Virus record (IMG/VR): IMGVR_UViG_3300019124_000022 | Span: 1 to 29,818 of that record | Source of the DNA: a virus | Reading direction: 5' to 3' (one strand) | Length of the DNA: 29,818 bases | Shown: positions 1-29,818 of the stretch, piece by piece | Layout of the letters: every line of letters starts with the position of its first letter | How positions within the stretch are numbered: the stretch's first letter is position 1 | Notes under the pieces: model-generated | Told to the model about the DNA's origin: nothing | Databases searched by the model: none | What the model saw: only the letters and a program-made list of their open reading frames with translations | Program-made: the position numbers and the translations under genes

Positions 1-80
1 CTACGGGCTACTTCGAAGGTGCTCGTTTCTTTAGGGGAGCGGCAGGGAACCTCGTGCCCGAAAGTTACGGCGCAGAAGAA
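1..80. other. left chromosomal flank
   Basis: These 80 bases lie outside the left attachment repeat of element 1 and are presumably host chromosome downstream of the original tRNA-Arg gene. I see no gene or clear signal in them. Confidence 0.5.
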
Positions 81-127
81 TGGCGCACCCGACACGATTC
101 GAACGTGTGACCTTTGCCTTCGGAGGG
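81..127 (-). repeat. attL of element 1 (displaced tRNA-Arg 3' fragment)
   Basis: These 47 bases are identical to 16485-16531 and correspond to tRNA positions 31-77, from the anticodon loop to the encoded CCA end. The match stops right after the anticodon loop, where the sequence turns into element DNA. This is the original 3' half of the tRNA, displaced by integration, and it is not a functional tRNA. Confidence 0.9.
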
Positions 128-255
128 TTTCGGTTAGGCATTTTCTCTGGTTTTCAGGAATTTTCTCGAAGTAGCTAAAGCCTTATATTGAAAACATTTT
201 CTGCCGTTTCGGGTTTTCCAGCCAATTCGAGCATCTTCCCCAATTTCGGATTTCG

Positions 256-274
256 TGGTGACTCTGTGGTGACA
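256..274 (+). promoter_or_regulatory. putative integrase arm-type sites, left end of element 1
   Basis: TGGTGACT at 256-263 and TGGTGACA at 267-274 form a direct pair with an 11-bp period, between attL and the integrase start. A matching pair with the same period lies at 16418-16436 inside the other end. Paired short repeats near both ends of an element are typical of tyrosine-integrase arm-binding sites. The function is inferred. Confidence 0.6.
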
Positions 275-299
275 CTAACCCCAAAGGCAAGGGTCACAG

Positions 300-1580
300 A
301 TGCCGAAGCTCACCAAGAAAATCGTGGACGCGGCCGAGCTGCGGGAGAAGCCATATTTCATCTGGTGCAGCGACCTTCCCGGCTTCGGCATCCGTGTCTT
401 TCCGTCCGGCAAGCGGGTCTATTATGCCGATTACCGCAACAAGTCCGGCCAGCGGAAGCGAATGACCATCGGGCCGCACGGCAAGCTCACGACCGAAGAG
501 GCCCGCAAGCTCGCCATGATGACGCTGGGCGACGTTCTGAAGGGCGAAGACCCGGCCGAGGAACGGGCCACCCGCCGCAACTCCCTCACCGTGAAGGAGC
601 TATGCGCCAACTACCTCGAAGCGGCCGAGCGCGGTTTGATCATGGGCAAGGGCGGCCGGGCGAAGAAAGCCTCTACCCTCTACGTGGATCGCGGCCGGAT
701 CGAGCGGCATATCATCCCCTTGCTAGGCTCGAAGCTGGTCCGCGACTTGGCGCAAGCCGACATTCACCGTTTCATCCGTGATGTGGCGGCCGGAAAGACG
801 GCCACCGTCGAGAAGACCGGCAAGCCGCGCGGCAAAGCCATCGTCGAAGGCGGGATCGGCACGGCCGCCCGCACCGCCGGCCTGCTGGGCGGCATCCTGT
901 CCTTCGCCGTGTCCGAGGGCGTCATTCCGTTCAACCCGGCGCAAGGTGTGAAGCGTCCTGCCGACAAGAAGCGCCAGCGGCGGCTCACTGCCGAGGAGTA
1001 CCGCCGGCTAGGAGAGGCGCTTGAGAAAGCCGAGGAGGAGGCAGAGACGGAACAGGCCATTCATGGGGCTTGGCTGCTTGCCCTCACCGGCTGTCGCCTA
1101 GACGAGATCCAAGGGTTGAAGTGGTCCGAGGTTGATGAGGCCGGCGGCTGCTTCCGGCTGGAGGACACGAAGGAAGGTGCATCCGTCCGGCCAATCGGAC
1201 GCCCGGTCTTTGACGTACTGGCGAGGATCGAGAGACGGAAGGGCTGTCCCTATGTGCTACCGGCCGCAAGGGGAGCCAAGGGCCATTATGGCGGCCTGCC
1301 CGGCGGCTGGGAGCGGATTGCCGAGCGAGCCAAGTTCACCGATGTGACGCCGCACACCCTCCGGCATTCTTTCGCCAGCGTGGCCGGCGATCTAGGGTTC
1401 ACCGAGAGCACCATTGCCGCAATGCTGGGCCACGCGGCCGGATCGGTGACCAGCCGCTATGTCCATCACCTCGATAGCGTCCTGATCGCGGCGGCCGATA
1501 AGGTGGCGCGGGCAATTCATGCGCAGATGACGGGAGAGGAAGGCAAAATCGTGCAGCTTCCAAGCCGGGCGGCGCGGTGA
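300..1580 (+). CDS. int: tyrosine-type site-specific integrase of element 1
   Basis: This 426-aa protein catalyses integration and excision of element 1 at tRNA-Arg. The N-terminus (residues 1-85) resembles the DUF4102-type arm-binding domain, the middle (95-210) is the SAM-like core-binding domain and the C-terminus is the catalytic domain. Catalytic residues are visible: R266 in TGCRLDEI, K291, H352 and R355 in HTLRHSF, H378 in LGHAAG and the nucleophile Y387 in SRYVH. The ATG follows AAGGG about 7 bases upstream. It sits 170 bp inside attL and reads into the element, next to the putative arm sites. Length and motifs are normal for the P4-like family, so the gene looks intact. Confidence 0.95.
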   Translation: MPKLTKKIVDAAELREKPYFIWCSDLPGFGIRVFPSGKRVYYADYRNKSGQRKRMTIGPHGKLTTEEARKLAMMTLGDVLKGEDPAEERATRRNSLTVKELCANYLEAAERGLIMGKGGRAKKASTLYVDRGRIERHIIPLLGSKLVRDLAQADIHRFIRDVAAGKTATVEKTGKPRGKAIVEGGIGTAARTAGLLGGILSFAVSEGVIPFNPAQGVKRPADKKRQRRLTAEEYRRLGEALEKAEEEAETEQAIHGAWLLALTGCRLDEIQGLKWSEVDEAGGCFRLEDTKEGASVRPIGRPVFDVLARIERRKGCPYVLPAARGAKGHYGGLPGGWERIAERAKFTDVTPHTLRHSFASVAGDLGFTESTIAAMLGHAAGSVTSRYVHHLDSVLIAAADKVARAIHAQMTGEEGKIVQLPSRAAR

Positions 1581-8858: not shown

Positions 8859-10067
8859 ATGATCGAAAAGCTCAAAAGTCTGTTTCGACCTGAAACGAAA
8901 TCTTCCCTGGCCAACCCCTCGGCCGAGTTGCTTGCCCTGTTCGGGGCAAGCCCAACCGCATCCGGCACCGTCGTCACCCCTGAAAGCGCGATGCGCTGCG
9001 CGACGGTTTACGCCAGCGTGAAGGTGATTGCCGAGAGCGTGGCTCAACTTCCCCTGCACCTCTACAAGCGCACCTCAGACGGCGGGAAGGAACGGGCCGC
9101 CGATCATCCCCTTTCCGAGCTGCTGCACGATCAGCCGAACGAGTGGACTTCGAGCTTCGAGTTCCGGTTGTTCATGCAGACGGCCCTTTGCCTGCACGGC
9201 AATGCCTATGCCTTCATCAACCGGACGAATGGCCGGATCTTCGAGCTTATCCCCATCCCGTCGCCGTGCGTGACCGTCGAAGTCGATCCGGTGACGATGG
9301 AGCCTTCCTATAAGGTTTCGTCCGGTGATGGCGACCAGCGTGTCTATGACCGAACCGAGATCTTCCATCTGAAGACACTGGGAACGTCACCGCATATCGG
9401 ACTTTCGCCCATCTCTCAGATGCGCGAGGCTATCGGCCTGGCGCTGGTGATGGAGGAGCACGGCGCGCGCCTCTTCTCCAATGGGGCGCGGCCGAGCGGC
9501 ATTTTTAAATACGGCAAAATGGTTAGCCCTGAGCTGGCGAAGCGCCTGCGGGACAGCTTCAACGCGGCTCACGCCGGAGGCCCGAACAGCGGCCGGACGC
9601 TGATCCTCGAAGATGGATTGGACTTCCAGGCGCTTCAGTTCACGTCCGTGGACCTTCAATTCCTTGAGCTGCGCCGGCACCAAATCGCGGAGATCGCGCG
9701 CGGCTTCCGCATCCCGCTCCATCTGCTGCAAGAGCTTGAGCGCGCCACGCACAACAACGCGGAGAGCATGGGACAACAGTTCCTGTCGCTCACTGTTCTG
9801 CCTTGGTTGAAACTCTGGGAGGGCGCAATCAGCCGCTCGCTTCTGACGGCTGAAGAGCGCCGCGACTACTATGCCGAGTTCCTGGCTGACGACCTGGCGC
9901 GAGCCGATCTTGCAGCCCGCTTCGAGGCTTATGCCAAGGCCGTCACGAACGGCATTCTCAACCCCAACGAAGTCAGGGCGGCGGAAAACCGCGCGCCCTA
10001 TCCCGGCGGCGATCAATTCCGCCTGCCGATGAACACCGAAGATCCGAACAAGCCGGGGAACGAGTGA
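8859..10067 (+). CDS. HK97-family phage portal protein
   Basis: The protein has 402 aa from ATG 8859 (AAGG 5 bases upstream; a TTG at 8823 is less likely). Portal hallmarks are AMRCATVYASVKVIAESVAQLPLHLYKR near residues 38-65 (described here in two parts: AMRCATVYASVKVIAE and QLPLHLYKR), HPLSELLHDQPNEW, ALCLHGNAYAFI, and NNAESMGQQFLSLTVLPWL. Twelve copies form the ring through which DNA enters the head. It opens the head module; its stop overlaps the protease-capsid start (TGATG). In most phages the terminase lies before the portal, but here it lies after the connectors, as in cf-PICIs. Confidence 0.93.
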   Translation: MIEKLKSLFRPETKSSLANPSAELLALFGASPTASGTVVTPESAMRCATVYASVKVIAESVAQLPLHLYKRTSDGGKERAADHPLSELLHDQPNEWTSSFEFRLFMQTALCLHGNAYAFINRTNGRIFELIPIPSPCVTVEVDPVTMEPSYKVSSGDGDQRVYDRTEIFHLKTLGTSPHIGLSPISQMREAIGLALVMEEHGARLFSNGARPSGIFKYGKMVSPELAKRLRDSFNAAHAGGPNSGRTLILEDGLDFQALQFTSVDLQFLELRRHQIAEIARGFRIPLHLLQELERATHNNAESMGQQFLSLTVLPWLKLWEGAISRSLLTAEERRDYYAEFLADDLARADLAARFEAYAKAVTNGILNPNEVRAAENRAPYPGGDQFRLPMNTEDPNKPGNE

Positions 10068-11728: not shown

Positions 11729-11758
11729 GGCCGCTTCCCCAACTTTGAGGACACCGAC

Positions 11759-12130
11759 ATGCGCGACATGCGGAACAGCATCAAAATCGTCCCGGTGGTT
11801 GAGCCCGGCGTCTATTCGGGCAAGGCCGAGGGCAAAGCCGTGGACACAGCGGGATTCGACTCGCTCACGTTCGCCATCGTCATGGCCGAAGGCGGCAAGG
11901 CCAGCGGCTTCGAGGTTGCGATGGAGCACAGCGATGACGGCAAGGAATGGGAACTCGTTCGGCCTGACAACGTGCTGGGTGAAATCGAGAGCGGTGAACC
12001 GTTCGGCTACACCGGCGGCACGACGGGCCAGCGGCGCTACGTGCGCCTTTCCCTTTCCCCGAAGGGCAAGACTACCAAGGGCACAGGTTTAGCCGTGATG
12101 GCCATTCTCGGCCATCGGCGCGGATCTTAG
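11759..12130 (+). CDS. hypothetical head-module protein (123 aa)
   Basis: I do not recognise a named family. The protein appears all-beta: alternating short strands with FDSLTFAIVMAEG, FEVAMEHSDDGKEWELV, FGYTGGTTGQRRYVRLSLSP and GLAVMAILGHRR. The EHSDDG.EW pattern recalls carbohydrate-binding-like jelly-roll or head-fiber folds. GAGGA lies 9 bases before ATG 11759. Its place directly after the capsid gene suggests a head decoration or stabilising protein, inferred from position only. Confidence 0.7.
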   Translation: MRDMRNSIKIVPVVEPGVYSGKAEGKAVDTAGFDSLTFAIVMAEGGKASGFEVAMEHSDDGKEWELVRPDNVLGEIESGEPFGYTGGTTGQRRYVRLSLSPKGKTTKGTGLAVMAILGHRRGS

Positions 12131-12239
12131 GGCGGCGGTTTTCTGAGGCCGATGCGATCAGGCCAACAACGGAAAGTCACCTCCCTGCCGCCCGTAGCTC
12201 TGTTCAAGATGCGAGAGGGTCAAGGTGACGAGATCGCAT

Positions 12240-12268
12240 GAGGGGCCGGAGACACCAACCGGCCCCTC
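12240..12268 (+). terminator. strong GC hairpin between capsid and connector genes
   Basis: GAGGGGCCGG (12240-12249) pairs perfectly with CCGGCCCCTC (12259-12268) around a 9-base loop. No T-run follows (CCCATCC), so it may be a pause or RNA-stability element that sets the capsid-to-connector ratio, not a full terminator. The rest of the 12131-12300 gap shows only a possible 29-aa ORF (12152-12241). Confidence 0.5.
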
Positions 12269-12300
12269 CCCATCCTCCGACGAGATGAAGGCGTATCACG

Positions 12301-12930
12301 ATGCTCACGGTTATCAGCCCTGCCGCCCATCACCGGCTTACGACGCTCGAAGCCGTGAAGAATGAACTGTCGCTCACGAATACGGCCGATGATGCGTTCC
12401 TCTCCGACCTGATCGACCAAGCAAGCGATATCGTGCGCACTTGGTGCGGCCGGTCATTTGCGCTCGAAGGCGTCCGTGAGACGCTGCATCACAACCGGCC
12501 GGGCGCAAGCGTGATGCTTTCGCGTTGGCCTGTCGCCTCGATCGATGCCGTCACTATCGATGGTCGAGTTTTCGACCCTGTGAATTTCCAGGCCGAAGAC
12601 GGCGCTGGGATCGTCTACCGGATCGGTGCTGACGGCTGCACGGCGAGCTGGCCATCCGGCCGGACAGTGATCGAGTACACGGCCGGCTATGTCCTGCCGA
12701 ATGACGACAACTCGGCTGAGCCCACCCTGCCGAAGGATATCGAGCGCGCTGCCATCATCCTTGTGAAAACGGCCTACTTCGCGCGTGGCCGCGATCCGCT
12801 CATTCGCACCGAAGATGTGTCCGGCATCGCCAGCACGACCTACTGGGTTGGTGGCTTCGGCAATGGGGCAACCCTGCCGCCCGATGTGGAAGGGCTCCTG
12901 TCCCCGCATCGGCAAGTTCTGATCGGGTGA
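12301..12930 (+). CDS. head-tail connector protein (gp6-like)
   Basis: This 209-aa protein begins with the connector signature TLEAVKNELSLTNTADDAFLSDLIDQAS followed by IVRTWCGRSF (the first given in two parts: LEAVKNELSLTNTADDAFL and DLIDQAS). The later ERAAIILVKTAYFARGR helix is also typical of gp6-type adaptors, which form a ring under the portal and receive the tail. The middle (60-130) is beta-rich with TIDGRVFDPVNFQ. It is followed after 4 bp by the head-tail joining gene. In a cf-PICI this protein would provide the interface that accepts a helper tail. Confidence 0.88.
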   Translation: MLTVISPAAHHRLTTLEAVKNELSLTNTADDAFLSDLIDQASDIVRTWCGRSFALEGVRETLHHNRPGASVMLSRWPVASIDAVTIDGRVFDPVNFQAEDGAGIVYRIGADGCTASWPSGRTVIEYTAGYVLPNDDNSAEPTLPKDIERAAIILVKTAYFARGRDPLIRTEDVSGIASTTYWVGGFGNGATLPPDVEGLLSPHRQVLIG

Positions 12931-12934
12931 CACG

Positions 12935-13267
12935 ATGAACGCTGAGATCGTCGCTCTTGATCGTGCCCTTGCCCGCACTGGCGAAACCATCACCCTGCGG
13001 CGCGGAACGACAACCGCTCCGACTGCCCTCGCGACCGTGAAGGCTCATGTACGCGGCTACAAGCCTGAGGAGCTGATCGGCGGCATCACTCAGACGGATA
13101 GCCTTGTCACCCTCTCTCCAACCGATCTTGTCGCCGCGAATTGGCCGATGCCACCGAAGAAGGGCGATTGGGCCATCATCCAGGGCCGCGCCCGCTCCGT
13201 CGAGGTGGTCGGCCTGATTGTCGCGGCTGATGTGCTGGTTCGGATCGAAATGCGGGTGCTGGGCTGA
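12935..13267 (+). CDS. head-tail adaptor / head closure protein
   Basis: The 110-aa protein has the size and beta-rich pattern of phage head-tail joining proteins (SPP1 gp16/HK97 gp7-like): ETITLRRGTTTAPTALATV, VRGYKPEELIGGI, LVTLSPTDLVAANWP, KKGDWAIIQGRARSVEVV and a final strand. It plugs the portal-connector complex and docks the tail. It starts 4 bp after the connector gene, and its stop overlaps the HNH start (TGATG), so translation is coupled. Confidence 0.8.
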   Translation: MNAEIVALDRALARTGETITLRRGTTTAPTALATVKAHVRGYKPEELIGGITQTDSLVTLSPTDLVAANWPMPPKKGDWAIIQGRARSVEVVGLIVAADVLVRIEMRVLG

Positions 13268-13719
13268 TGCCGTGGTCTGCACCAAAGCACTGCCCGCATG
13301 GCCATCCGCCTTACCGTGGATCGCGCTGCCCGCATTGCTCGGCCGCCTTCAGAGCGGCGACCGAAGCGCGCCGGCCGAACGCTCAACAGCGTGGTTATGA
13401 CAGCAAGTGGCGACGTGAGAGCAAGGCATTCCTCGCTCTGCCCGAGAACCGCTTTTGCGCCTGCGGCTGCGGACAGGTTGCCGACATGGTTGATCACCGC
13501 ATCGCTCACAAGGGCGACAAGCGTCTGTTCTGGGATCGCTCAAACTGGCAACCCATGGCCCGCGCCTGCAACTCCCGCAAGGCAATCCGAGAGGAAGGCG
13601 GCTTCGGCAACAAAGTGTCAAAACCCCTAGGGGAGGGTTCGAATTTGGCCTCTGGGGGCGACGACCGACCGGGGGTACTTGCGCGCAATCTCGTGGAAAA
13701 TGGGAGTTTTCGGAAATGA
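13267..13719 (+). CDS. HNH endonuclease of the packaging module
   Basis: The protein has 150 aa. N-terminal CPHG and CPHC pairs suggest a zinc knuckle. The HNH core is FCACGCGQVADMVDHRIAHK, where D and H of DHRI are the catalytic pair, followed by N in RSNWQPM and the C-terminal CNSRK. HNH proteins next to terminase work with TerL and portal in cos cleavage and packaging, and an adjacent HNH-TerS-TerL order is a hallmark of cf-PICIs and HK97-like cos phages. The frame overlaps TerS by ATGA. The last 40 residues are low complexity. Confidence 0.9.
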   Translation: MPWSAPKHCPHGHPPYRGSRCPHCSAAFRAATEARRPNAQQRGYDSKWRRESKAFLALPENRFCACGCGQVADMVDHRIAHKGDKRLFWDRSNWQPMARACNSRKAIREEGGFGNKVSKPLGEGSNLASGGDDRPGVLARNLVENGSFRK

Positions 13720-14126
13720 AGGGCCGCAAGCCGAAGCTGGCGGTGATCGAAGGCGGGTTTTCACCTGGCCGCTGCCCGGCTGCGCCCACATGGTTCACCC
13801 CTCAAGCGAAGGCGGAGTGGAAGCGGGCCGCGCCTCAACTCCATGGCCGGAAGCTGCTGTCATCCGACACGCTCGCAACCCTCGAAAGCTACTGCGTGGC
13901 TGTGGGCGTGGTGCGTGAATGCGAAGAGATCATGGGCCGCGACGGTCGCATGATCGAGAGCGAGGACGGCCCGAAGCCGCACCCTGCATTCAAGATGCAA
14001 AGCGCCGCGATGCGCGAAGCAAGACTTTTGGCCGCTGAACTGGGGCTGACCCCGCACCGTCGCGGCGTGCAAAGCAAAGACGAAGGGAAACAAAACGATG
14101 GCTGGGAGTCCGATCTTCTCGCCTGA
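13716..14126 (+). CDS. terS: P27-family terminase small subunit
   Basis: This 136-aa protein has the phage terminase small subunit P27 layout: MKGRKPKLAVIEGG at the start, CPAAPTWFTPQAKAEWKR, a central helix with LATLESYCVAVGVVRECEEI, then HPAFKMQSAAMREARLLAAE and GLTPHRRG at the end. It recognises satellite DNA (cos) for packaging and so decides which genome fills the head. It is coupled to HNH upstream (ATGA) and overlaps TerL by 29 bp. Confidence 0.9.
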   Translation: MKGRKPKLAVIEGGFSPGRCPAAPTWFTPQAKAEWKRAAPQLHGRKLLSSDTLATLESYCVAVGVVRECEEIMGRDGRMIESEDGPKPHPAFKMQSAAMREARLLAAELGLTPHRRGVQSKDEGKQNDGWESDLLA

Positions 14127-15711
14127 TCCGGCGCTTTACCCTGATCCGACCGGCAGGGCTGACCGTATCTGCCGCTTCATCCGGCGGCTCAAATTGTGGG
14201 AGGGCGACTTTGCCGGACGACCTTTCCACCTTCACGGCTTTCAGGAAGCCATTGTTCGGCGCATCTATGGGCCGAGCACCGACGACGGCGCGCGCCTGGT
14301 GCGGATCGCCTGCATATGGATACCACGCGGCAACGCGAAGACGACTTTGGCCGCTGGGCTGGGCTTGGCTCACTTCCTGGGCCCGGAGGCTGAGGCCGGC
14401 GGACAGGTTGTCATGGCCGCCGCGGATCGGGAGAACGCTGGCATTGCCTTCAACTCGGCCCATCAATTCGTTCTGCAGGATGACACCCTTTCCTCTCGGG
14501 TTCGGGCCATCGAGAGCCGGAAGACCCTCGGCCATCCGAAGACGAAGAGCACCCTGAAGGCTATCTCGAGCGAGGCTTATTCGAAGCACGGTCTAAACGT
14601 GTCGTTCTTCCTGGCCGATGAGGTTCACGCCTGGCCGCTGGGAGAAGGCCGCAAGCTCTTCAAGACCGTCACCGACTCCATGGTGAAGCGGTCGCATCCT
14701 CTCACGGTGATCATCTCCACGGCTGGCGAAGGACAGGGCGGCTTGGCCTGGGACTTGTGGCAGTACTCACACAAGGTGGCGTCCGGCGAGATCGAAGACC
14801 CGACGTTTGCACCGATCATCTTCGCGGCTCCGCCTGAAGCCGATTGGCGGGATGAAACCGCTTGGCGCATGGCCAACCCTGCGATTGCCGCCGGTTTCTG
14901 TTCGCTCGAAGAGCTGCGCATTAAGGCGCGGCGGATCGAGCACTTCCCGGCCGAGATTGCGGACTTCCGCCGCTTTCACCTCGATCAGTGGCAGGAAGGC
15001 GCGGCGAACCCCTGGCTTGCGCTCGAAGTCTATGACGCGGCGGAGCCGATGACGCCGGTTGAGGATCTAGCGGGCCGGTCGTGCTGGGTTGGAGTGGACC
15101 TGTCGAGTGTGGAAGACCTGACGGCCGTGGTTGCCGTCTTCCCCGATGGCGATGAAGAGGGCCGCCGCTATGACGTGCTGCCTATGTTCTTCCTGCCCGA
15201 AGCTGGATTGACGAAGAAGGCCGAGAAGGATCAGGCCGATTACCTGCGCTGGAAGGAAGCCGGGTTCCTGACCGTGACTGAAGGCAACGTGGTGGATCAT
15301 GCCGCCATCGTGGATTACGTGGTTGAGCTGGGCACGAAGTACGGCGTTCAGGAAATCGCCATCGACCGCTGGAACTCCACAGCGGTGAACACGGCCCTTC
15401 AGGACGAGGGCTTTACGATCAACCAGTTCGGACAGGGCTTCGCCAGCATGGCCGCCCCTGTGAAGGAACTGAAGCGGGCGATCCTGTCCGGCCACTTCCG
15501 CCACGGCGGCAACCCGCTCCTGCGCATGTGCTTCGGCAATGTGGTTGCCGACAAGGATGCGGCCGAGAACGAGAAGTTCACGAAAGAGCGGGCGCGTGGC
15601 CGGATCGATGGAGCCGTTGCCGCTGCCATGGCCGTGGGCCGCATCCTGGCGAATGAAACCGGGCCATCACCCTATGAGACGCAACGGCCCGAAGGCTTCC
15701 TGTTCATCTGA
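14098..15711 (+). CDS. terL: terminase large subunit
   Basis: The protein has 537 aa. The ATPase part carries Walker A PRGNAKTT (residues 76-83) and Walker B VSFFLADEVHAWP (about 168-180). The C-terminal RNase H-like nuclease part starts with CWVGVDLSSVEDLTAVV near 331 and contains EIAIDRWNS and a final acidic DGAVAAAMAVGR helix. It cuts DNA and pumps it into the proheads. It overlaps TerS and closes the packaging module. No tail genes follow. Confidence 0.95.
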   Translation: MAGSPIFSPDPALYPDPTGRADRICRFIRRLKLWEGDFAGRPFHLHGFQEAIVRRIYGPSTDDGARLVRIACIWIPRGNAKTTLAAGLGLAHFLGPEAEAGGQVVMAAADRENAGIAFNSAHQFVLQDDTLSSRVRAIESRKTLGHPKTKSTLKAISSEAYSKHGLNVSFFLADEVHAWPLGEGRKLFKTVTDSMVKRSHPLTVIISTAGEGQGGLAWDLWQYSHKVASGEIEDPTFAPIIFAAPPEADWRDETAWRMANPAIAAGFCSLEELRIKARRIEHFPAEIADFRRFHLDQWQEGAANPWLALEVYDAAEPMTPVEDLAGRSCWVGVDLSSVEDLTAVVAVFPDGDEEGRRYDVLPMFFLPEAGLTKKAEKDQADYLRWKEAGFLTVTEGNVVDHAAIVDYVVELGTKYGVQEIAIDRWNSTAVNTALQDEGFTINQFGQGFASMAAPVKELKRAILSGHFRHGGNPLLRMCFGNVVADKDAAENEKFTKERARGRIDGAVAAAMAVGRILANETGPSPYETQRPEGFLFI

Positions 15712-15721
15712 GGAGAGAGCA

Positions 15722-16117
15722 ATGCACACTGTGACGATCACCGGCCTGAACCGGGTGAGCAAGCCGAAGCCGAACCGGGCCGGGTTCACGATCCTGGCGT
15801 TCTTCGATTGCGAGGCCGGCGGGTTCGCTCTTCAAGGCTGCGCTCTGGTTCGGACGCCGAAGGATGGCTTGGTTGCTTGGCCGCCAAAGCTGGACGGTCC
15901 CGAAGGTATGCGCCGCTCCGTCGCGATCCTCGATGATTCGCTCCGCCATGCGATCATGCTTCACGCCCGCGAAGCCTACCGGGCCTTGGGCGGCCGTGAT
16001 GCCGAGTGGATCGGGCGCGCTGTTCCTATGGGTCCGCGTCAGCACGACGCTACAGCCGAGGATGGGAATGAGCCAATCGAAGGACTTCAACGCTTCCTCG
16101 GGGCTAATGTTAGTTAA
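15722..16117 (+). CDS. hypothetical protein (131 aa), SpoVG-like outline
   Basis: The start at ATG 15722 follows GGAGAGAG closely. The central part (FTILAFFDCEAGGFALQGC, ALVRTPKDGLVAWPPKLDG, then LRHAIMLHAREAYRALGG) has the outline of SpoVG-like nucleic-acid-binding proteins, in which a strand pair leads to a conserved G-hydrophobic-x-x-P-P turn and a long C-terminal helix. This likeness is weak evidence, and I cannot name a family. It lies 10 bp after terL and is probably cotranscribed with it. Confidence 0.55.
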   Translation: MHTVTITGLNRVSKPKPNRAGFTILAFFDCEAGGFALQGCALVRTPKDGLVAWPPKLDGPEGMRRSVAILDDSLRHAIMLHAREAYRALGGRDAEWIGRAVPMGPRQHDATAEDGNEPIEGLQRFLGANVS

Positions 16118-16151
16118 TGTGAGATGCCGGGAGACGTGGTAATGTTCGCAT

Positions 16152-16391
16152 ATGCCCCGTTACTTCTTCGACACGCATGACGGCGACCTTTTCATCCGAG
16201 ATGACGACGGTCTTGAGCTGGACGGCATAGAAGCCGCTCGTGATGCTGCCACAGGTGGGCTCGCGGATTTGGCGCGGGACGCAATTCCTGGTTCTATGCG
16301 CAGAGAACTTTCTGTTCAGGTTCGCGATGAGGGAGATAAGCCCATTATCAGGGCTGCCCTTTGGTTCGAAGTCGCAACCCTGATTCCATAG
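16152..16391 (+). CDS. DUF6894-type small protein (79 aa)
   Basis: It begins MPRYFFDTHDGDLFIRDDDG and continues with a helix (EAARDAATGGLADLARDAI) and a strand pair (RRELSVQVRDEGD and IIRAALWFEV). This is the DUF6894 pattern common in Hyphomicrobiales; function unknown. A second member (25983-26231) is in element 2. It is the last gene of element 1, 27 bp before the right arm sites, and could be a host gene picked up by imprecise excision. Confidence 0.75.
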   Translation: MPRYFFDTHDGDLFIRDDDGLELDGIEAARDAATGGLADLARDAIPGSMRRELSVQVRDEGDKPIIRAALWFEVATLIP

Positions 16392-16417
16392 CTTCACCAT
16401 CGGCCAGGAATGGCTTT

Positions 16418-16436
16418 TGGTGACACTATGGTGACA
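16418..16436 (+). promoter_or_regulatory. putative integrase arm-type sites, right end of element 1
   Basis: TGGTGACA occurs at 16418-16425 and 16429-16436, an 11-bp period identical to the left pair (256-274). It lies 49 bp inside the tRNA-derived core. Same sequence, orientation and spacing at both ends support arm binding by the element 1 integrase. Confidence 0.6.
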
Positions 16437-16484
16437 CCGGCATTTCCGCCGTATCGCCACATCTCACTAAGTCTTTGGGAAGAT

Positions 16485-16561
16485 TGGCGCACCCGACACG
16501 ATTCGAACGTGTGACCTTTGCCTTCGGAGGGCAACGCTCTATCCAGCTGAGCTACGGGTGC
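16485..16561 (-). tRNA. tRNA-Arg(CCG)
   Basis: The 77-base gene reads GCACCCG at the 5' acceptor arm, paired with CGGGTGC before the G discriminator and encoded CCA. D stem GCTC/GAGC, anticodon stem TTGCC/GGCAA with loop CTCCGAA (anticodon CCG at 16525-16527), and T arm ACACG-TTCGAAT-CGTGT are all well formed. It reads codon CGG and is the only complete copy in the window. Its 3' 47 bases are duplicated at 81-127 and its 5' 42 bases plus upstream DNA at 29713-29818, so it appears assembled from the ends of two mobile elements. Confidence 0.97.
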
Positions 16562-16625
16562 TTATGGCGGTTCGCCTGTTCTCTTCCCTACCCGATCAGG
16601 GCTCTCAAGACAACCTCTGACGGCA
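16520..16625 (-). repeat. attL of element 2 (tRNA 5' half plus upstream region)
   Basis: These 106 bases match 29713-29818 with two mismatches (16579 T against C, 16622 G against C). The repeat starts just 3' of the anticodon loop, covers tRNA positions 1-42 and continues at least 64 bp upstream, where the tRNA promoter should lie. The match reaches the window edge, so its full length is unknown. The rest of 16562-16849 holds the left arm sites and no gene. Confidence 0.9.
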
Positions 16626-16757
16626 GGGAGGAGAAAAACTCCTTAGAAACCAATGGAAACGCCCACTGGTCACAGTCAAGATTGTAGTGGGTATACCGGA
16701 AGGAGCAAGGGGCAATTTGACCAAAGCGCTTTAGCGTTCCCCCTCTCCCACTGGGCC

Positions 16758-16792
16758 TGTCACACCGCGCCACTGTGACAGAAACTGTGACA
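16758..16792. promoter_or_regulatory. putative integrase arm-type sites, left end of element 2
   Basis: CTGTGACA occurs at 16773-16780 and 16785-16792 (12-bp period), with an inverted TGTCACA at 16758-16764. A further inverted GGTCACAG lies at 16668-16675. The same direct pair with the same 12-bp period is found inside the right end at 29589-29608. Arm-site function is inferred from this symmetry. Confidence 0.6.
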
Positions 16793-16849
16793 AGCTAAGA
16801 TAGAGGAAGTGGGCCTTCGTCTGATAAGCGTTGGTCTGCTGTCGCCTCT

Positions 16850-18718
16850 TTATGCTACGGCTTCAAACCTCTGCAGCTTCTTCCGAAGGTGCGTCCGGTA
16901 TTTCCCAGATCCCCATTCCTCAAGCCCCATCTCCTCCAGGGCAGTCAGGAAGGCTTGGTGTTGCCGGATAGTGCTTCTGAAGTTGGATGTGTCCTTGATT
17001 CCCACTGCATTCTTCACGGCTTTGAGTGCCAGGGCACCATCAGGATGAGTAGCGAACCAGTCCCGCACATACTTAATAGCATCAGCAACCTGACCGCGCA
17101 CCTCCTTAGGGATCGGCGTCCATGACGTTAATTGGGCTCCTGGGAAGATCTCAGGCAGCAGTTCCTTGATGCCACTGTACGAGCTGGCAATCAGATAGGC
17201 ATTCACCGGGGGGCACTCACCACTCTGGTTCTGTCTCGCACTGCTCCGACACAACGCTTGCAGGATCATGTGGCTGTGTTCACCAGACTCCGTGGCCTGT
17301 GCCTGATGATCCGAAGGGCTTCCTTCAGATGGTCGTAGATTTAGAGCAAGCCGTGTCAGCCCTTCCCTGTGGGACAATGGAAGAAAGAGGGTGCCAGCCA
17401 GGATCACATTGGACATGTCCTTGAACTCGTTAGTGCCATCATGGCTCCCCCAGTTCAGGAACCGGACTTTATGATTGGGAGGCAGTTGCTCAGAGAGGCT
17501 CGTAGGAAGATCCAGCTTGAGACTAGGCGTGTACTTGTGGTGGATGACCAACCACTCCTCATCGGGCCTCGTCTCAATGGCCCTAAGGACACCCTCAATG
17601 ATCCTGTCACCCTCAGTCCTATAGGCCGCCTTGCCGCCACCGTGATCCCACACATTGATGGTCAGGCTGCTATAGTGCTTGGTTGCTGATGGGAGACGAA
17701 CGAGATCACCCCGATGCTTCTCCCACAGATCATAGGTAGTCCTGACTCTGGCCGAGGCGTCCAACGTGAGAATGGGCTTTATGTCGCTTGGAAGTGTCTG
17801 TCGGTAACTGACCAAGGTAGGCCCAGCAGGACCATCCACTCTCACCACAACCATTTGCCCCATGAGGAACCACAGGGCCTCCAGGGCCTTCTGCTTTACC
17901 TCGGGTTCATGGACGAACAATCCAGATACCTCATGAAGAGACACGCCTAGAGACACATCAAAGGATGGCACCTCAAGAATGGTCTTATCCTTGGCGTCAC
18001 CAAGCTCCTGGAAGAAGCCCTCCAGAGCCTTTGTCAGCTCAGGATACCGAGGTCTCAGGATCTGGAAGAGGGATGCCAAGCTGTCACGACCCAGGGTCAC
18101 AGGTTGCCCTGGTAGGATAGCTTCATCCCAGATCTTCACTTGTCGGGGTTGACCTTGGAACCAAAGGCTCTTGGCTTCACGAAATGAGCCTCCAGAGCAC
18201 CTCCTCTCAACCATGGCATGAGTTGTGAAGAGGATACGAGCATCCTCAGGGACACCACAGCCCAAGGAGTTCAGATCCTCATTGTTCTTACCAGTGAGAA
18301 CAGCAAAGTCCTGATCCTGAAGGCCAGCCTCCTCAATTGCATTCTGAATCTGATCCAATCGACCAAGACACACCAAAGCGGAGACACCCTTGTGATCCTT
18401 GGATTGAACCAACTCCTTGAGGAACTGGATCATGGCTGTGGTCTTCCCCACACCAGGATCAAGGCTGCTGACATAGTAGGTTGGGGCACAGCTTCCTTCA
18501 GCCATATCAACCATGACCTGGATTGCAGACCTTAGGCCTATCCACATCTCAGGGCTGAGGGACAGAGCACGGTTATCAAAGGTGATCTTGAGGTTTCTCA
18601 GAACCCCTTCAGTGAGTAAGCCTGAAACACAAGAAGTGGTACTATCTCTATTATAGTAATATAGGCTTTCTACCATATCTGTTCTGGCTATATCCAAGCC
18701 TGATTTGTCCAATACCAT
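16850..18718 (-). CDS. P-loop NTPase, SF2-helicase-like (622 aa)
   Basis: Walker A is SLDPGVGKTTAMI (about residues 84-96), followed by a motif Ia-like segment with ALVCLGRLDQIQNAIEEAG, a motif with ARILFTTHAMVERR, then Walker B KIWDEAILPG (about 193-202). Later TLDASARVRTTYDLW and VRFLNWGSHDGTNEF with NVILAGTLFLPL resemble helicase motifs III to V. The last 100 residues are helical and may bind DNA. It may be the replication or mobilisation helicase of element 2, or a defence helicase; I cannot assign a family. It is transcribed leftward toward the tRNA and has no close partner on its strand. Confidence 0.65.
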   Translation of the reverse strand: MVLDKSGLDIARTDMVESLYYYNRDSTTSCVSGLLTEGVLRNLKITFDNRALSLSPEMWIGLRSAIQVMVDMAEGSCAPTYYVSSLDPGVGKTTAMIQFLKELVQSKDHKGVSALVCLGRLDQIQNAIEEAGLQDQDFAVLTGKNNEDLNSLGCGVPEDARILFTTHAMVERRCSGGSFREAKSLWFQGQPRQVKIWDEAILPGQPVTLGRDSLASLFQILRPRYPELTKALEGFFQELGDAKDKTILEVPSFDVSLGVSLHEVSGLFVHEPEVKQKALEALWFLMGQMVVVRVDGPAGPTLVSYRQTLPSDIKPILTLDASARVRTTYDLWEKHRGDLVRLPSATKHYSSLTINVWDHGGGKAAYRTEGDRIIEGVLRAIETRPDEEWLVIHHKYTPSLKLDLPTSLSEQLPPNHKVRFLNWGSHDGTNEFKDMSNVILAGTLFLPLSHREGLTRLALNLRPSEGSPSDHQAQATESGEHSHMILQALCRSSARQNQSGECPPVNAYLIASSYSGIKELLPEIFPGAQLTSWTPIPKEVRGQVADAIKYVRDWFATHPDGALALKAVKNAVGIKDTSNFRSTIRQHQAFLTALEEMGLEEWGSGKYRTHLRKKLQRFEAVA

Positions 18719-19288
18719 AGCAATAATCTTGTTTGTGTCACACAGACTTAGCTTGGCAACCTAAGTCGTCGGAGATCTATACCTCCCAGGAGCATCAGGC
18801 CCGCACTCCTCACTGCGGATAATTCTTCACAAGCGGGATCTCCTTAGCGGCACAATAGGAGTGGTCCTAATACCAGGATATAATTTGCGTTTAGTTCCGA
18901 TATTCGTAGAACTCTATTGTTCAGACAACTATCTGATTCTCAGTAAACATGCAACAGAAGATTCAATATACACTTGGCAATTATTTTTACAGATCTTATA
19001 CAATCCGGATTTAATACATGCTTGAGTGTTGACACTTGATACTTAGTGCTTGTGTCACTCAGCAACCGAACTTTGCTCCTGGAGCTTAGCCCCATCTAGA
19101 TGCCGACTGCTCCTGAAGGATCTCAACGGTAGAGTGACTACGGATTTGGCACTAAAGGGCCGTCGAGGAGGACCGGTACGCTCGGCAGAGCTGCTAATGG
19201 GATAGCGAGCCCCATCCCCGAACGCTCCCAAGGCTCCCGCGTTATCTTGGAAGCACAGCTTGAGGTGCTAGACCCAAGGAGGCTTCCC
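18719..19288. other. 570-bp gene-free region
   Basis: No credible ORF is seen on either strand. There is a palindrome around 18733-18742 (TGTGTCACACA), an AT-rich stretch (about 18880-19040) with a perfect TATAAT at 18879-18884 lacking a matching -35, and an inverted repeat at 19024-19060 (GAGTG..GACAC with GTGTCACTC). The layout could suit a control region or replication origin for element 2, but nothing proves this. Confidence 0.4.
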
Positions 19289-19420
19289 ATGAACATGTCT
19301 GACATGGCTCACAGGGTCACTGATGCGATCAAGCGGATGACTGACAGGCTAACGCACCGGAGGGACACTCATTCCCAGCAGTCATCCAGCAAGAAAAGCG
19401 CCACTGACATGAAGAAGTGA
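19289..19420 (+). CDS. small basic protein (43 aa)
   Basis: A strong ribosome site (AAGGAGG, 6 bases before ATG 19289) supports translation. The product is hydrophilic, starts MNMSDMAHRVTDAIKRMTD and ends in a K/S-rich tail with SSKKSATDMKK. The first 25 residues could form an amphipathic helix. No family is recognised. It stands alone between the gene-free region and the recombinase remnant. Confidence 0.5.
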   Translation: MNMSDMAHRVTDAIKRMTDRLTHRRDTHSQQSSSKKSATDMKK

Positions 19421-19465
19421 GCAAAGGGGGTGCCTGAAAGGGTGCCTCACCTCCCATTGTGTTTG

Positions 19466-19558
19466 TCAGGATGCCCGGGCTCGGAACACCGATCTCTCAC
19501 CGAGACCGAGCCTCTGAGCAATCTCTCTTGGAGGCCCCTTAGGAGGCTAAGGCTTTGA
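19466..19558 (-). pseudogene. remnant of a serine recombinase 3' end
   Basis: About 90 bases resemble the HTH-coding end of the resolvase at 20147-20240. On the minus strand the segment reads IKALAS, then a TAA where the intact gene has CAG, then ASKR, a 2-base deletion, and IAQRLGLGERSVFRARAS with a stop at the same place. The stop and frameshift show that it is dead. It is probably left from an older resolvase copy or a recombination event between resolvase genes. Confidence 0.75.
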
Positions 19559-19668
19559 TGTGCGAGAGATCCTAAGGTGAGATGCCTCACGATCAAGCCA
19601 AAGATTTAGAGCGATCTATGTGTGTGGAATTCCGGAAGTGATCAGGAGTGAAAGGATCACTCTTAGGA

Positions 19669-20070
19669 TCAGCGTAAGCTAACCCCACCATTGTAGGACA
19701 CCTTCCTGCAACTGTTGAACTCAACAACGTGCTCGTACTGTGTCGCTAAGTGCTTGGCTGAGAGTGTCACGCTCCATCCGCGTCCAGCTACTCCACCTTC
19801 AGCGATGCGATCACCATAACGAACAGAGCAACAACTTGGGTCTCGTTCGATGGCAGAGACGTAGTCCTCAGGATTGGCGAAGTTGAACCCCTCTCGTGAG
19901 GATGCCTGTGGGGCAATCAACTGTTTGGCGAACGCAAGTGCCTGTTCTGGGGTGTTGATCCTCTCTTCGGGTGGGCAGGTAGCCATGAGATCGGCATTGC
20001 CGCCTGTCAGGTGCCAGAGGCCCAGGCCCGCTAGACCTATAAGAACGATTGCCAAACGCCCGTGTCTCAC
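19669..20070 (-). CDS. secreted or membrane-anchored hypothetical protein (133 aa)
   Basis: It starts with GTG 20070, preceded by AGGGGG. Residues 1-20 (MRHGRLAIVLIGLAGLGLWH) are a signal peptide or anchor. The mature part contains four cysteines (ATCPPEER, a CC pair in DPSCCSVRY and a late NSCRKVSYNGG), so disulfides in the periplasm are likely. No family is recognised. It lies 76 bp downstream of the resolvase gene on the same strand. Confidence 0.6.
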   Translation of the reverse strand: MRHGRLAIVLIGLAGLGLWHLTGGNADLMATCPPEERINTPEQALAFAKQLIAPQASSREGFNFANPEDYVSAIERDPSCCSVRYGDRIAEGGVAGRGWSVTLSAKHLATQYEHVVEFNSCRKVSYNGGVSLR

Positions 20071-20146
20071 ACAGCCCCCTTAGTGCTTGGAGCAATCGTT
20101 GCTTATCAAAGGATCGTGCTCTCTGAGAAGGGTTATTGATTGGCCA

Positions 20147-20698
20147 TCACGATGCAAGGACTCTAAAGACCGACCTCTCGCCAACACCAAGCCTCTGAGC
20201 AATCTCTCTCTTGGAGACACCCTGGGAGGCCAAGGCTCTGATCTGATCCGCTTTGGCTCGTGCTGTAGGGGCTCTCCCCTTGTACTTCTTCTCAGCCTTC
20301 GCTTTAGCGATCCCTTCCTTCTGGCGCTCCAGCATCATTTCCCGCTCAAACTGAGCCACACTCCCCAGCACATTGAGCATGAGCTTTCCGGTTGGGGTGT
20401 TGGTGTCGATGCCAAGATCCAGGATACGGAGGCCCACCTTCTTGGCTTCCAGAGCGGCAATGATCTGGCCCAGGTGAACCACGGAGCGGGCCAAGCGATC
20501 CAGTTTGGTAACAACCAGGGTGTCTCCCTCACGCACATACTCCAGAGCTGCTTCTAAGGCCTCTCTGGGGCCTACTGAGGAAGTCTGTTCCAGGAAGACC
20601 TTGCCACACCCGAGGGCCTTCAGATCCCTTTCCTGAGCTTCCAGCCCAGCCACCTGATCCAACGTGCTTGTGCGTCCGTAGCCCACCAGCATTGTCAT
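20147..20698 (-). CDS. serine recombinase (resolvase/invertase family)
   Basis: The protein has 183 aa from ATG 20698, with AGGA just upstream; a longer frame to 20926 adds 76 residues unlike the family and is rejected. VGYGRTSTLDQ holds the catalytic serine (residue 11), TKLDRLARS (64-72) the arginine motif, and LGSVAQFEREMMLERQKEGI the E-helix. The C-terminus (KADQIRALASQGVSKREIAQ and LGVGERSVFRVL) is the HTH. It could resolve dimers or invert DNA at res sites; the AT-rich gap at 18719-19288 is one place to seek them. It follows the NACHT gene by 231 bp on the same strand. Confidence 0.93.
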   Translation of the reverse strand: MTMLVGYGRTSTLDQVAGLEAQERDLKALGCGKVFLEQTSSVGPREALEAALEYVREGDTLVVTKLDRLARSVVHLGQIIAALEAKKVGLRILDLGIDTNTPTGKLMLNVLGSVAQFEREMMLERQKEGIAKAKAEKKYKGRAPTARAKADQIRALASQGVSKREIAQRLGVGERSVFRVLAS

Positions 20699-20929
20699 GT
20701 GTGTTCCTGCCACTGAAATCGAAGACATTGAGGCAGACACCATGCCAAAAAGCAAGAACCACTTCAGTGGCGCACAGGATTGTCCACAGTAAGCTCTGCC
20801 ATATGGGCAAGGCCTAATGGCCGCCGCTTCCCTGGCTAATAGAGGTTCGTCTTGAAACAATCCGCGCAGCTGTTTTTTGTTACCTGAGAATGCAGGTGGA
20901 GGTGGCCAGCATTTAGTAGCGAGCAAATC

Positions 20930-23900
20930 TCAATCTAAACTGCTCCATCTGGCATCGAGTTGTGCAAGTCGAATGCTATTGGGGTCATTAGGCAGCTGCG
21001 GACGACCGTTTGGCCAATGGTCCGTAGGTTCAGCGAGCTTCTCGATGTGATTGAGAGTAACTTGTTCAAGCCAATCCAGAAATTCCGCTCGGTACAAATT
21101 CGTTCTAATTGATAGATAGGTTTCTGCTATCCATTGACGACTGGGCACGAAAGATAACTTCGCCTCTCGCAGCGTCACATAATCCTTATAGCATGTACTT
21201 AAGGCTGAAAATAAAGATGTGCAATACACATAAGCCATTGGTATTGTGAGCAAGCTCAAAATTATAGTAAAAACAGATTTCCTTAGGTGTTCAGGAATTA
21301 ATCCTGTAGCAACGACTATCGCTATAGACCCGACAAATGAAAGCAGAAGAGAGCCTGTAAAAAATTTGACAAAGCGCTTTGAAGTTGGATGCCTTATTTT
21401 GTGCCAAGTTGCAGGGCTAGTAGGAATAAGGCCAAACACAATTACTCCGATGCTCCACAAAGTAGCGTCGTACCTTAAGCTAAAGCCTTTGTTCGCTACT
21501 TCATCATTAATAACAAGCTCCGAGATTGCCAACATAATCATAGCCACAATTTGGGCTAGAAGCAAAAAGAACGCAACATTATGCCCAGCCCTCATAAACG
21601 TGTGAAACGATAGAATAGCTCTGCGTGTCGCCATTCTTTGCGCAGGATTCTTAGAGCCTTCGAGCAGGCTTTTTATCTTATTGCGCTTTGAGGATTTAAA
21701 TAGCGGGATGGTGAAGTTAATCATATCGAATATGTACGCAGTGAGAAGCAGGAGCAGCCCAGATGAAACCCCCAATATAACTGCAGGACTCAAGGTGTAC
21801 ATTGATATTGCGATCAGCAATAATACAGATATAGTGGCTTTAATTACGTCGAAACGGAACAAATTTAGCCAAGTCGCTACTTTCTTAGTCGCATTACTGA
21901 TTCTGAAAACGTCGCCCTGACGAGCAGCTTCCATCGCGCCGAAGCGATCTATTGTATTGTCATAAATTGCAATAAGCAGTTTGGCCGAAGTCGAAGGTAG
22001 GTATCTAGCCGCTGTAGCGGTCGTTTCGGTTAGCCATGGCGGGAGCTTCCTAAGTGCTAAGATGATGACTCGATAGGTTGTTCTCGCATCGAGCAAGGAA
22101 ACTGCCTCAAGGATCGTCCGTGTTTCAAGGAAGTCCGATTTTCGGTTGAGGCGGCTGCGGATTATGCGCGCTAAATCTGGCTTTAGGTGTTCAATAGCCT
22201 CGCGTCTATTTCGGAAGCCTTCGACTTGGAAACGAAGTGCGTTACGGGCTTGGACAAATGCAGCCCGATCTTCTGCCAATGACAATGTTTCGATGTTGCG
22301 AGCAAAGCTCCAGGCATGAGTCACTAGCTGCTCTGCAACATCCTTTGGGGCTATCTCAGCATAGAGAACCAGAGCGTCTCTCAAGCGGGAGTCGGTCTGT
22401 ATAGCATCAAGGGAGATAGATCCCTGCTCTCGACTCAACCGCCTAACAAGGAAGTACTCGTTGAAACGCCGGTGAGCAAAAGAGAAAGTTCCCGTTTCGC
22501 CGCCAAGTCTACCTAGCCGGGACTGTGTTAGGAAACGAAGGACTTTAGGGAGGAGTGGATCTGATATGTACCGACGTAATTCGCTCTCCGAAATTTCTAA
22601 GCCGGTGTTGGTCTCCTGAAACATGGCATAAGCGATGTCCTCTGCGATCATATTGATCGAACCATTGTCCGTTTCACGGAATCGATAGGTATCTCTCGCA
22701 AATTGCAAATTGGCATCGACATAAGCCTGGAATATCTCGGCTTGCGTGTCAGGAGCTTTTTGCGTGTTGTTGAAGTAATTAATTATTAGGTGGAGTAGAA
22801 ATGGATTGCGCGCCAATAATCCAAGATCCGCCCTTTCAGTTAGAATGATACGAGCAAGAAGGCTTGGGGAGTCCGCCCCCAACCTGATGGCTTGGATGAT
22901 GCGATCATCAGAAAAGGGACGTATCTCATATACTGATCTAGTGCCGTGAATGATCTTAGGCTTCCTAAACAGGCGAGATGCGATCACGGCTCTCGCTTTG
23001 CGTCCGCTCAGGACGTAGCTTGTCACACAAGAGGACAACCTTTCAATCAGCCATGAGGTCTCCTCATGATCCAGCACCGCTGGAATTTCGTCAAAAGAGT
23101 CAAGGATAAAAAAGAAATATCCTGCCTCAAATAGGCGTTCATATATGGTTTTCCCGGAATCAGGGTCTCGTTGCCGTAGGAAGGCCTGAGAATTGTAGTC
23201 GAGATCGTCTTGTAGGCTTCTAAGGACGAACTCATGGAAGTCATGCTCAGTGGGTGGATCTTCGAGAGTCCAGTTCCTTTCAGCTCTCCACTCTTTGAGG
23301 TTCAAATATACAGGTATGCGATCTGACTGTTGGCTCCGATCTAAGAGATCACGCGCCAACTTCCTCATCGCTACACTTTTGCCTGACCCCGGTTCTCCCA
23401 ACACAACAAAGATGCGCGTCGTACGTTCGCTACGTAGTGCTCGCATTAGATCTACAACTTTGCGCCTTGAGGCTCGTCCCTCAAGCACTTGAACCTCTGC
23501 TTCAAGAGGCACGTAGCTTGCCGCGCTCCATCTTGTAGCCTGGTCGATACGGTCGAGACGATCCCGAAGAGATCTTTTGAGAATCTCTAGGCGCTCAAGG
23601 TTTGTCACAGACGGTAAGACATCCTTGATTTTTTTGTCCGGCTCTCCCATCGGCGACGCACTAGAGAGGCCCCAAAGCGCCACAAAGCATATAAAAGCCG
23701 TTAGGAGGACGACCAAGACTTGAGTGGAAAGTGTGGGGGAGATCTGATCAAGGCCAACTTCTGAAAGTTCAATCCCAGTAATCTCCAGTATAGTCCTGGC
23801 ATTTTTTCTGGCTATCTGCAAGATTACTGAAATAATGACATTCGAAGGCATTAACAATAGGGTTACTACAGGCAAAACACAGCTAACTACAATAATGCGT

Positions 23901-24100: not shown

Positions 24101-24103
24101 TAC

Positions 24104-24166
24104 TAAAGGCCCCGAAAAATCTCCGTTTAGGTTTATGCGAACGATTGGCTGTAGGGAAGGCCTTTA
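24104..24166 (-). promoter_or_regulatory. leader inverted repeat at the NACHT start
   Basis: TAAAGGCC (24104-24111) and GGCCTTTA (24159-24166) form a perfect 8-bp inverted repeat. The near arm ends three bases before the start codon at 24100. In the mRNA the stem would hide the initiation region, and I see no strong ribosome site outside it. The gap 24167-24380 shows only a small hairpin (GCCTA/TAGGC near 24195-24210) and no gene. Confidence 0.45.
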
Positions 24167-28575: not shown

Positions 28576-29568
28576 TTAGCTCTGGGCTCTTGCCAACTTC
28601 TCAGCCACCTTTTCCGGCTTGAGGTGTGTGTACCTGTTCAGCATCCTCAAATCCCGATGCCCGCTGATCAGAGCGACCTCAGGGATGCTCAGTCCGTACT
28701 CAAAGAAGCGTGACACAGCCTCGTGCCTGAGATCGTGGAGGCGAATATCATCTAGTCCAGCTCTACTCCGCAGCCTTTCCCAAGCTAATCGGATGGCATT
28801 TGGCTTGATTGGAAACACCTGATCATTGGTCCTCTGGAGGGAGCCAAGAAGCTCAATCGCTTTGGGAGTTAAGGGGATAGTGCGAGAATCACCGTTCTTC
28901 GTCTGCTTCAGCCTCAGTATGCGCCTCTCGAGGTCCACATCCCGCCAGCTGACAGAGAGGAGTTCGCCTCGCCTCATGCCTGTCTCGATAGCAAGCACCA
29001 GAAATGGGCGTAGGTACCAAGCAGAGCGTTTGCCAATCGCGTTGAACAGCCTACTGGCCTCACCGTCTTCAAGACGGCGCTCTCTTGGCCTGGAGTCCTT
29101 TGGCAGCTTGATTGAATGTACTGGATTGCTAGGGAGGGGGATGTTCCACTCGGACTTGGCCACTTCGAATACATGCCTCAATACAACCAGCTCACGGCGA
29201 ACTGAGGCGGCTTGAACCTGTTTCAGGCGATCATCGCGGTAGCGGGCTGCTGAGGCTCCTGAGAGATCACTTAGGCGCACTTTGGAGACAGAGTGCCGTC
29301 TGAGCGTCTGAAGGCGTGAACGCTCCGCCTTCTCACCCCGCTTGGTTGGTGTCACCTCATTCTCATAGCGCGTCAAAAGGTCAGCTACAGTGAGCTTATA
29401 GAGATCCTGGATGTTAGGGGAGCGCACAGTGCAGTCTAGCTGTGTCTCAATGCTCCTAGCCCAAACCGCTGCCTCCCCCTTTGTGGGAAAGCTCTTGGAC
29501 ATGGGTGGGTGCCCCTCTCGTCTCACTTGAACCTGCCAAGAGGAGCCCCGTTTACGGATCGTAGCCAT
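28576..29568 (-). CDS. int: tyrosine-type site-specific integrase of element 2
   Basis: This 330-aa protein is smaller than the element 1 integrase and unrelated to it at the N-terminus (MATIRKRGSSWQVQVRREGH is an AP2-like arm-binding start). The core-binding domain covers about 60-145. The catalytic residues are R199 (TGMRRGELL), K224 (QTKNGDSRTIPL), H278 and R281 (RLHDLRHEA), H304 (ISGHRDLRM) and Y313 (NRYTHLKP). It lies 145 bp inside the right attachment repeat and reads into the island. It should recombine at the anticodon stem-loop region of tRNA-Arg. Confidence 0.95.
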   Translation of the reverse strand: MATIRKRGSSWQVQVRREGHPPMSKSFPTKGEAAVWARSIETQLDCTVRSPNIQDLYKLTVADLLTRYENEVTPTKRGEKAERSRLQTLRRHSVSKVRLSDLSGASAARYRDDRLKQVQAASVRRELVVLRHVFEVAKSEWNIPLPSNPVHSIKLPKDSRPRERRLEDGEASRLFNAIGKRSAWYLRPFLVLAIETGMRRGELLSVSWRDVDLERRILRLKQTKNGDSRTIPLTPKAIELLGSLQRTNDQVFPIKPNAIRLAWERLRSRAGLDDIRLHDLRHEAVSRFFEYGLSIPEVALISGHRDLRMLNRYTHLKPEKVAEKLARAQS

Positions 29569-29588: not shown

Positions 29589-29608
29589 CTGTGACAAATG
29601 CTGTGACA
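29589..29608 (+). promoter_or_regulatory. putative integrase arm-type sites, right end of element 2
   Basis: CTGTGACA occurs at 29589-29596 and 29601-29608, a 12-bp period that matches the left pair at 16773-16792. The sites lie just upstream of the integrase gene, so binding may also control its transcription. Confidence 0.6.
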
Positions 29609-29712: not shown

Positions 29713-29818
29713 GCCTTCGGAGGGCAACGCTCTATCCAGCTGAGCTACGGGTGCTTATGGCGGTTCGCCTGCTCTCTTCCCTACCCGATCAGGGCTCTCA
29801 AGACAACCTCTGACCGCA
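29713..29818 (-). repeat. attR of element 2 (displaced tRNA-Arg 5' half and flank)
   Basis: Bases 29713-29754 equal tRNA positions 1-42, and 29755-29818 match the DNA upstream of the intact gene, with two mismatches in 106 bases. The 3' half of the tRNA is absent, so this copy is a fragment that still carries the presumed chromosomal promoter. The match runs to the last base of the window. Confidence 0.9.

Follow-up and report, generated by a model that had tools for sequence, protein, structure and literature searches.

A tRNA-Arg(CCG) gene very probably built from the ends of two integrative elements, and an integrase family with three forms of attachment site

The window analysed here is the whole 29,818-nt stretch of the IMG/VR virus record IMGVR_UViG_3300019124_000022 and contains a single tRNA gene, a tRNA-Arg(CCG) whose anticodon was located at tRNA position 35 by ARAGORN (Table 1). 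Two direct repeats meet in this gene. The first, D4, is formed by the two copies of the 3' half and extends over 53 nt with 98% identity, where the single mismatch (80/16484) is located outside the tRNA and the 47 nt within the tRNA are identical. The second, D1, is formed by the two copies of the 5' half and upstream DNA and extends over 106 nt, also with 98% identity, with mismatches at 16579 and 16622 and 62 of the 64 positions upstream of the tRNA identical. The right end of D1 is placed at 29818 because the record ends there and cuts the right repeat. Chance cannot account for near-exact repeats of such length within 30 kb. The only stretch common to D4 and D1 corresponds to tRNA positions 31-42, which comprise two stem bases, the 7-nt anticodon loop and three stem bases. 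An earlier note on this DNA had described both repeats, the two upstream mismatches and an overlap confined to the anticodon loop and its flanking stem bases, and each of these was verified. Direct repeats which end at the anticodon loop, with one copy inside an intact tRNA gene, are the mark of tyrosine-integrase elements of the anticodon-loop kind. In addition, the displaced 5' fragment was found upstream of the tRNA, in the same orientation and at the far end of the second element. The left flank (1-80) gave no match among the loci compared and was left unused.

Table 1. Features of the two-element locus in the window
Feature	Position	Strand	Basis
Displaced tRNA 3' half, outer att site of element 1 (D4)	75..127	-	repeat; G256 equivalent 4061201-4061249
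Probable arm-type sites of element 1, integrase side, GGTGAC x2	254..277	+	
Int1, tyrosine integrase of element 1 (Arm-DNA-bind_3 + Phage_integrase)	300..1580	+	domain match; 95% identical in G256
Probable arm-type sites of element 1, distal side, GGTGAC x2	16418..16438	+	
Element 1-borne 3' half completing the tRNA (D4)	16479..16531	-	repeat; flank conserved in G003
Intact tRNA-Arg(CCG), probable mosaic of element 1 3' half and element 2 5' half	16485..16561	-	ARAGORN, repeats, fold
Putative shared crossover region, only stretch common to both repeats	16520..16531	.	same boundary in G256; tRNA-Ala anticodon loop in G319
Element 2-borne 5' half and promoter region, captured host-type DNA, end point not fixed (D1)	16520..16625	-	repeat, G256, G319
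Inferred -10, TAGGGA, 17 bp from the -35	16585..16590	-	hexamer and 17-bp spacing as in most Microvirga sites
Inferred -35, TTGTCT (TTGCCC in most Microvirga)	16608..16613	-	placed by eye against Microvirga sites
Probable arm-type sites of element 2, distal side, TGTCACA then TGTGACA x2 12 bp apart	16758..16792	.	
Int2, tyrosine integrase of element 2, R-K-HxxR-H-Y catalytic motifs present	28576..29568	-	domain match, motifs located
Probable arm-type sites of element 2, integrase side, TGTGACA x2, 12 bp apart	29590..29608	+	
Outer att site of element 2: displaced chromosomal 5' half with its native upstream DNA, truncated at the window end (D1)	29713..29818	-	repeat; chromosomal nature read from G256

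The repeats delimit two elements, each with its own integrase, and both integrases match PF00589. Element 1 (about 128-16531) restores the 3' half in the ordinary way; it is satellite-like, codes for a capsid and is without a tail, and Int1 adjoins the left repeat. Relatives of element 1 are present in IMG/VR (four contigs) and in the genome G256. One of the IMG/VR relatives, at the tRNA-Arg(CCG) gene of another host (G003, locus L011), shares the element-side flank (16440-16484) and has unrelated DNA upstream of the tRNA. The 3' half is therefore taken to be borne by element 1, as the earlier note had proposed. Element 2 (about 16520-29719) bears the 5' half and at least 64 bp of upstream DNA with a complete -35/-10 promoter. 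Int2 has an intact reading frame whose start is about 144 bp away from the repeat, and TGTGACA pairs are located inward of both att sites of element 2.

The same two-element arrangement was observed on a 4.4-Mb contig of a separate genome, G256, in the order 3' half (4061203), element 1', full tRNA (4077334), element 2' and 5' half (4090931), and both repeat boundaries are found again there. Long stretches of its first element are 88-91% identical to element 1, with 95% identity in Int1, while its second element has a cargo largely different from that of element 2 and an Int2 of 77% identity. Beyond the 5' half of G256, about 4.8 kb are collinear with the tRNA-upstream flank of Microvirga rosea, and the far part of this flank is also collinear with the tRNA-neighbour gene in five other Microvirga. 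Because of this collinearity the copy on the Int2 side of G256 can be identified as chromosome, and therefore the middle 5' half and its promoter came with element 2. This bears out the further claim of the earlier note that element 2 replaced the 5' half together with the promoter region.

Some other traces were noticed around this tRNA gene. Beyond the displaced 3' half of G256, positions 4061031-4061099 (L202) match the first part only of another Int2-type integrase, and therefore the tRNA has probably hosted at least three elements. Furthermore, the region upstream of tRNA-Arg in M. oxalidis and in G270 holds, some 60-100 bp before the gene, an inverted copy of the tRNA 3' half, and such a copy is also present in the element-borne upstream DNA of G256 (L134, L163, L203).

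The exact tRNA sequence was found across Alphaproteobacteria in a sequence search, and the best match of the upstream DNA of both window copies was to Microvirga, at about 74-85%; no match to the tRNA leader was obtained in the viral contigs scanned. In the aligned Microvirga sites the consensus promoter is of the TTGCCC-N17-TAGGGA type, about 51 and 28 bp before the tRNA; a script picked it, with small variants, in 12 of the 14 sites, and the remaining two show it on inspection by eye. The element-borne region upstream of the rebuilt gene holds -35 and -10 hexamers with the 17-bp spacing (TTGTCT-N17-TAGGGA), a pair that was read by eye, the top score of the script in the middle copy being a different pair. 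The two mismatches between the copies are located outside these hexamers. The element promoter region of G256 differs from the chromosomal one and keeps TTGCCC-N17-TAGGGA. The promoter upstream of the rebuilt tRNA gene is predicted to be active.

Homologs of Int2 (E below 1e-60) were found in 54 of the 397 genomes of the Microvirga family by whole-genome search. Int2 as a single query against viral contigs and genome contigs returned no relatives with exact 8-residue patterns, which were probably too strict. In most of the about 30 loci read, a tRNA is present on the integrase side and about 110 bp separate its 3' end from the integrase start; the targets include the tRNA genes Arg-CCG, Ala-CGC, Ala-GGC, Thr-GGT, Ser-CGA and Val-GAC. 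Comparison of both ends of each element gave three types of att site. The both-halves type (11 elements: G006, G315, G285, G012, G329, G275, G352, G385, G007, G365 and G262, the complete tRNAs of the last being read from contig ends) has a complete tRNA at both ends and a shared upstream piece of 1-29 bp with no native -35. The 3'-only type is formed by G270 and G183, whose integrases are distant (about 51% identity), together with G295, G195 and G388, in which a broken distal 5' half is seen. This half is broken by a similar insertion of about 28 bp in G195 and G388 and was judged by eye in G295. In the 5'-only type (the window, G256 and G319) the integrase side begins at the anticodon loop and the complete tRNA is at the far end. 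The repeat of G319, at tRNA-Ala(CGC), is 227 bp long with 96% identity and no gap and extends about 190 bp past the tRNA to include TTGACA and TAAAAC hexamers. G395, which resembled a further candidate but is masked with N around its att sites, was excluded from the typing, and G380 (tRNA-Ser), where several copies make the pairing ambiguous, was not counted.

The repeat ends at the anticodon loop in G256, in G319 and in the 3'-only relatives. Measured from the integrase start, the anticodon motif is 144-145 bp away in the three 5'-only elements; of the 14 others, 13 have a spacing of 142-148 bp and one has 135 bp. This geometry seems to be independent of the 3' half since the spacing is equal though only the elements outside the 5'-only type have a 3' half there. 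When the 5'-only integrase arms were compared for a decayed 3' half, no significant similarity was observed; an exchange of the arm is therefore as likely as decay. A whole promoter is carried by all three 5'-only elements and by none of the 11 both-halves elements (Fisher p 0.003, ignoring kinship), the status of the latter being judged by the length of the shared upstream piece. Because the integrase arm of a 5'-only element is without a 3' half, the far-end gene would be the only complete one and a whole promoter would be functionally required. In the distal arms at L189, L190, L183, L220 and L221, we also noticed that both-halves elements share a TCAATCNGTTAC-like motif just past the captured leader, which resembles an IHF site.

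In the integrase tree, a single clade of the three 5'-only integrases was rejected (AU p 2e-43), and therefore the 5'-only form arose more than once. The window and G256 integrases are not sisters, and a clade of these two was not rejected (p 0.17). The independent cases number two or three. The tree thus points to at least two origins of the 5' form.

An opposite assignment of the two 5' copies has to be considered, where 29713-29818 would belong to element 2 and 16562-16625 to the chromosome, with a crossover farther upstream and an incidental match at the anticodon loop. The near identity and equally host-like character of both copies and the cut of the window at the repeat would suit this assignment, but it conflicts with the chromosomal continuation of the G256 copy into DNA collinear with M. 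rosea, with repeats that end at this loop in G256, in G319 and in the relatives of the 3'-only type, with the constant integrase-to-anticodon distance and with the arm-type sites inward of both copies. We consider it very improbable. The earlier note had named this assignment as the finding that would overturn its reading; it is contradicted in G256, while the window ends 64 bp into the flank, inside the right repeat, and for this reason the chromosomal status of its right copy is read from G256 and not from its own genome. Slightly less probable still is that the copies come from ordinary duplication, or from homologous recombination between repeats, without an integrase crossover at the tRNA. 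Tandem att copies would stay identical if they underwent homologous exchange, and the 62/64 upstream match fits this. Against this, both integrases are intact with matching arm-type sites at fixed distances from the repeats, and the same boundary recurs across different cargo, hosts and tRNA genes.

An explanation that is unlikely, though it deserves more weight than either of these, takes element 2 to be a decayed both-halves element, its 5'-only state reflecting a redundant tRNA copy that is still being lost after integration, and not a transmissible form. Both-halves elements are indeed the norm of the family and three relatives (G195, G388 and G295) have lost the other half. However, the sequence that stands in place of the 3' half is similar in the integrase arms of the window and G256 with the spacing kept, and this similarity, despite an Int2 identity of 77% and different cargo, points to a 5'-only form that spread. 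The appearance of the 5'-only form again at tRNA-Ala in G319 and the full promoter of each 5'-only element also argue against this explanation.

The explanation that we strongly favour is that two elements recombined into one tRNA-Arg(CCG) gene, split at the anticodon loop, and that the single-half forms were derived from a redundant attP with both halves. Both elements would cross over in the anticodon loop of the same gene, on opposite sides, with Int1 and Int2 presumably catalysing the crossovers within the 7-bp loop. Element 1 would replace the 3' half, while element 2 would replace the 5' half and bring along a tRNA promoter copy of its own. As the integrase arm of element 2 is without a 3' half, the junction at 29713 would be a dead 5' fragment and the working gene would be located at the far end. 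The tRNA gene may thus be seen as a pair of exchangeable cassettes that meet in the anticodon loop, and therefore the loss of either element alone should leave a complete gene.

The usual attP of the Int2 family carries both halves, and therefore integration would leave two complete tRNA genes. From this redundant state, loss of the distal 5' half would give a conventional 3'-restoring element, while loss of the 3' half in the integrase arm would give a 5'-restoring element which must carry the whole promoter. This direction of change is suggested by the prevalence of the both-halves form and by the broken halves that were seen. More generally, the family may be a case of duplication, degeneration and complementation of an att site, where a whole split tRNA lets either half decay and the 5' route needs a whole captured promoter, which travels with the element and then drives the host tRNA; we hold this broader account to be about evenly balanced between right and wrong.

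Restoration of the 5' side, which the earlier note had called unusual, is uncommon and already catalogued: of the 3,919 islands mapped in Islander, 159 have 5' fragments and 3,760 have 3' fragments (PMC4383910). The former, like element 2, split the tRNA, rebuild its 5' side and leave the original 5' fragment displaced (PMC4383910). They differ from the present case, where the remaining half of the gene is restored by a second element and 3'-only, both-halves and 5'-only sites occur side by side in the Int2 family. Restoration of both halves at one gene had been thought rarer still, and it is not unique since G256 repeats the pairing. Archaeal pTN3-like integrases use the 5' half as attB, and the rebuilt tRNA is likewise severed from its original promoter (PMC5495485, PMC8371274). 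Their site is inside the integrase gene, which integration splits, and expression of the rebuilt tRNA is attributed to the integrase promoter, whereas element 2 brings a tRNA-type promoter copy and its att site is located outside an integrase gene that stays whole. The tRNA-dependent lysogeny of mycobacteriophages is similar in that the element supplies the tRNA function its integration destroys, but there a separate phage tRNA gene complements the loss (PMC10865867), while here the junction itself rebuilds the gene.

According to a review, rebuilt bacterial tRNA genes retain the original promoter in all but very few cases (PMC8371274, citing Williams 2002). This exception appears to have arisen at least twice in one integrase family with likely intermediates still present, so that how an element changes the half of the target it restores becomes testable. 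A partial literature search found no integrase family with all three att forms and no tRNA formed from two elements at once. The 5'-restoring islands are thus a kind already known, and the two-element mosaic gene, the graded series and the at least two origins of the 5' form would be what is new here. Both halves and the promoter of this tRNA gene all appear to be on mobile DNA. Furthermore, the both-halves elements of the Int2 family would be a class that duplicates tRNA genes upon integration, and the usual 3'-fragment rule would misplace the boundaries of such islands.

In element 2, a 1056-aa NACHT-domain protein beside a serine resolvase (20930-24100) is a possible defence gene, for which no firm PADLOC match was obtained, and about three copies of a degenerate 27-38 bp repeat are present in a low-coding part (25281-26936). 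Element 1 is likely a capsid-forming satellite of Alphaproteobacteria. It encodes an integrase, DUF927 primase, portal, protease-capsid, adaptor, head closure, TerS and TerL, and no tail families were found among the proteins scanned in its about 16 kb (small ORFs not all included). Head and packaging genes, no tail genes, a size of about 15 kb and an integrase and primase of its own characterise a capsid-forming PICI, and element 1 resembles these satellites in its gene set. In addition, imperfect inverted repeats rich in GTGTAACA units were observed at 1587-1683 and 8493-8612, on either side of a stretch of element 1. Similar GTGTAACA-like units recur in its relatives and are perhaps replication or regulator sites.
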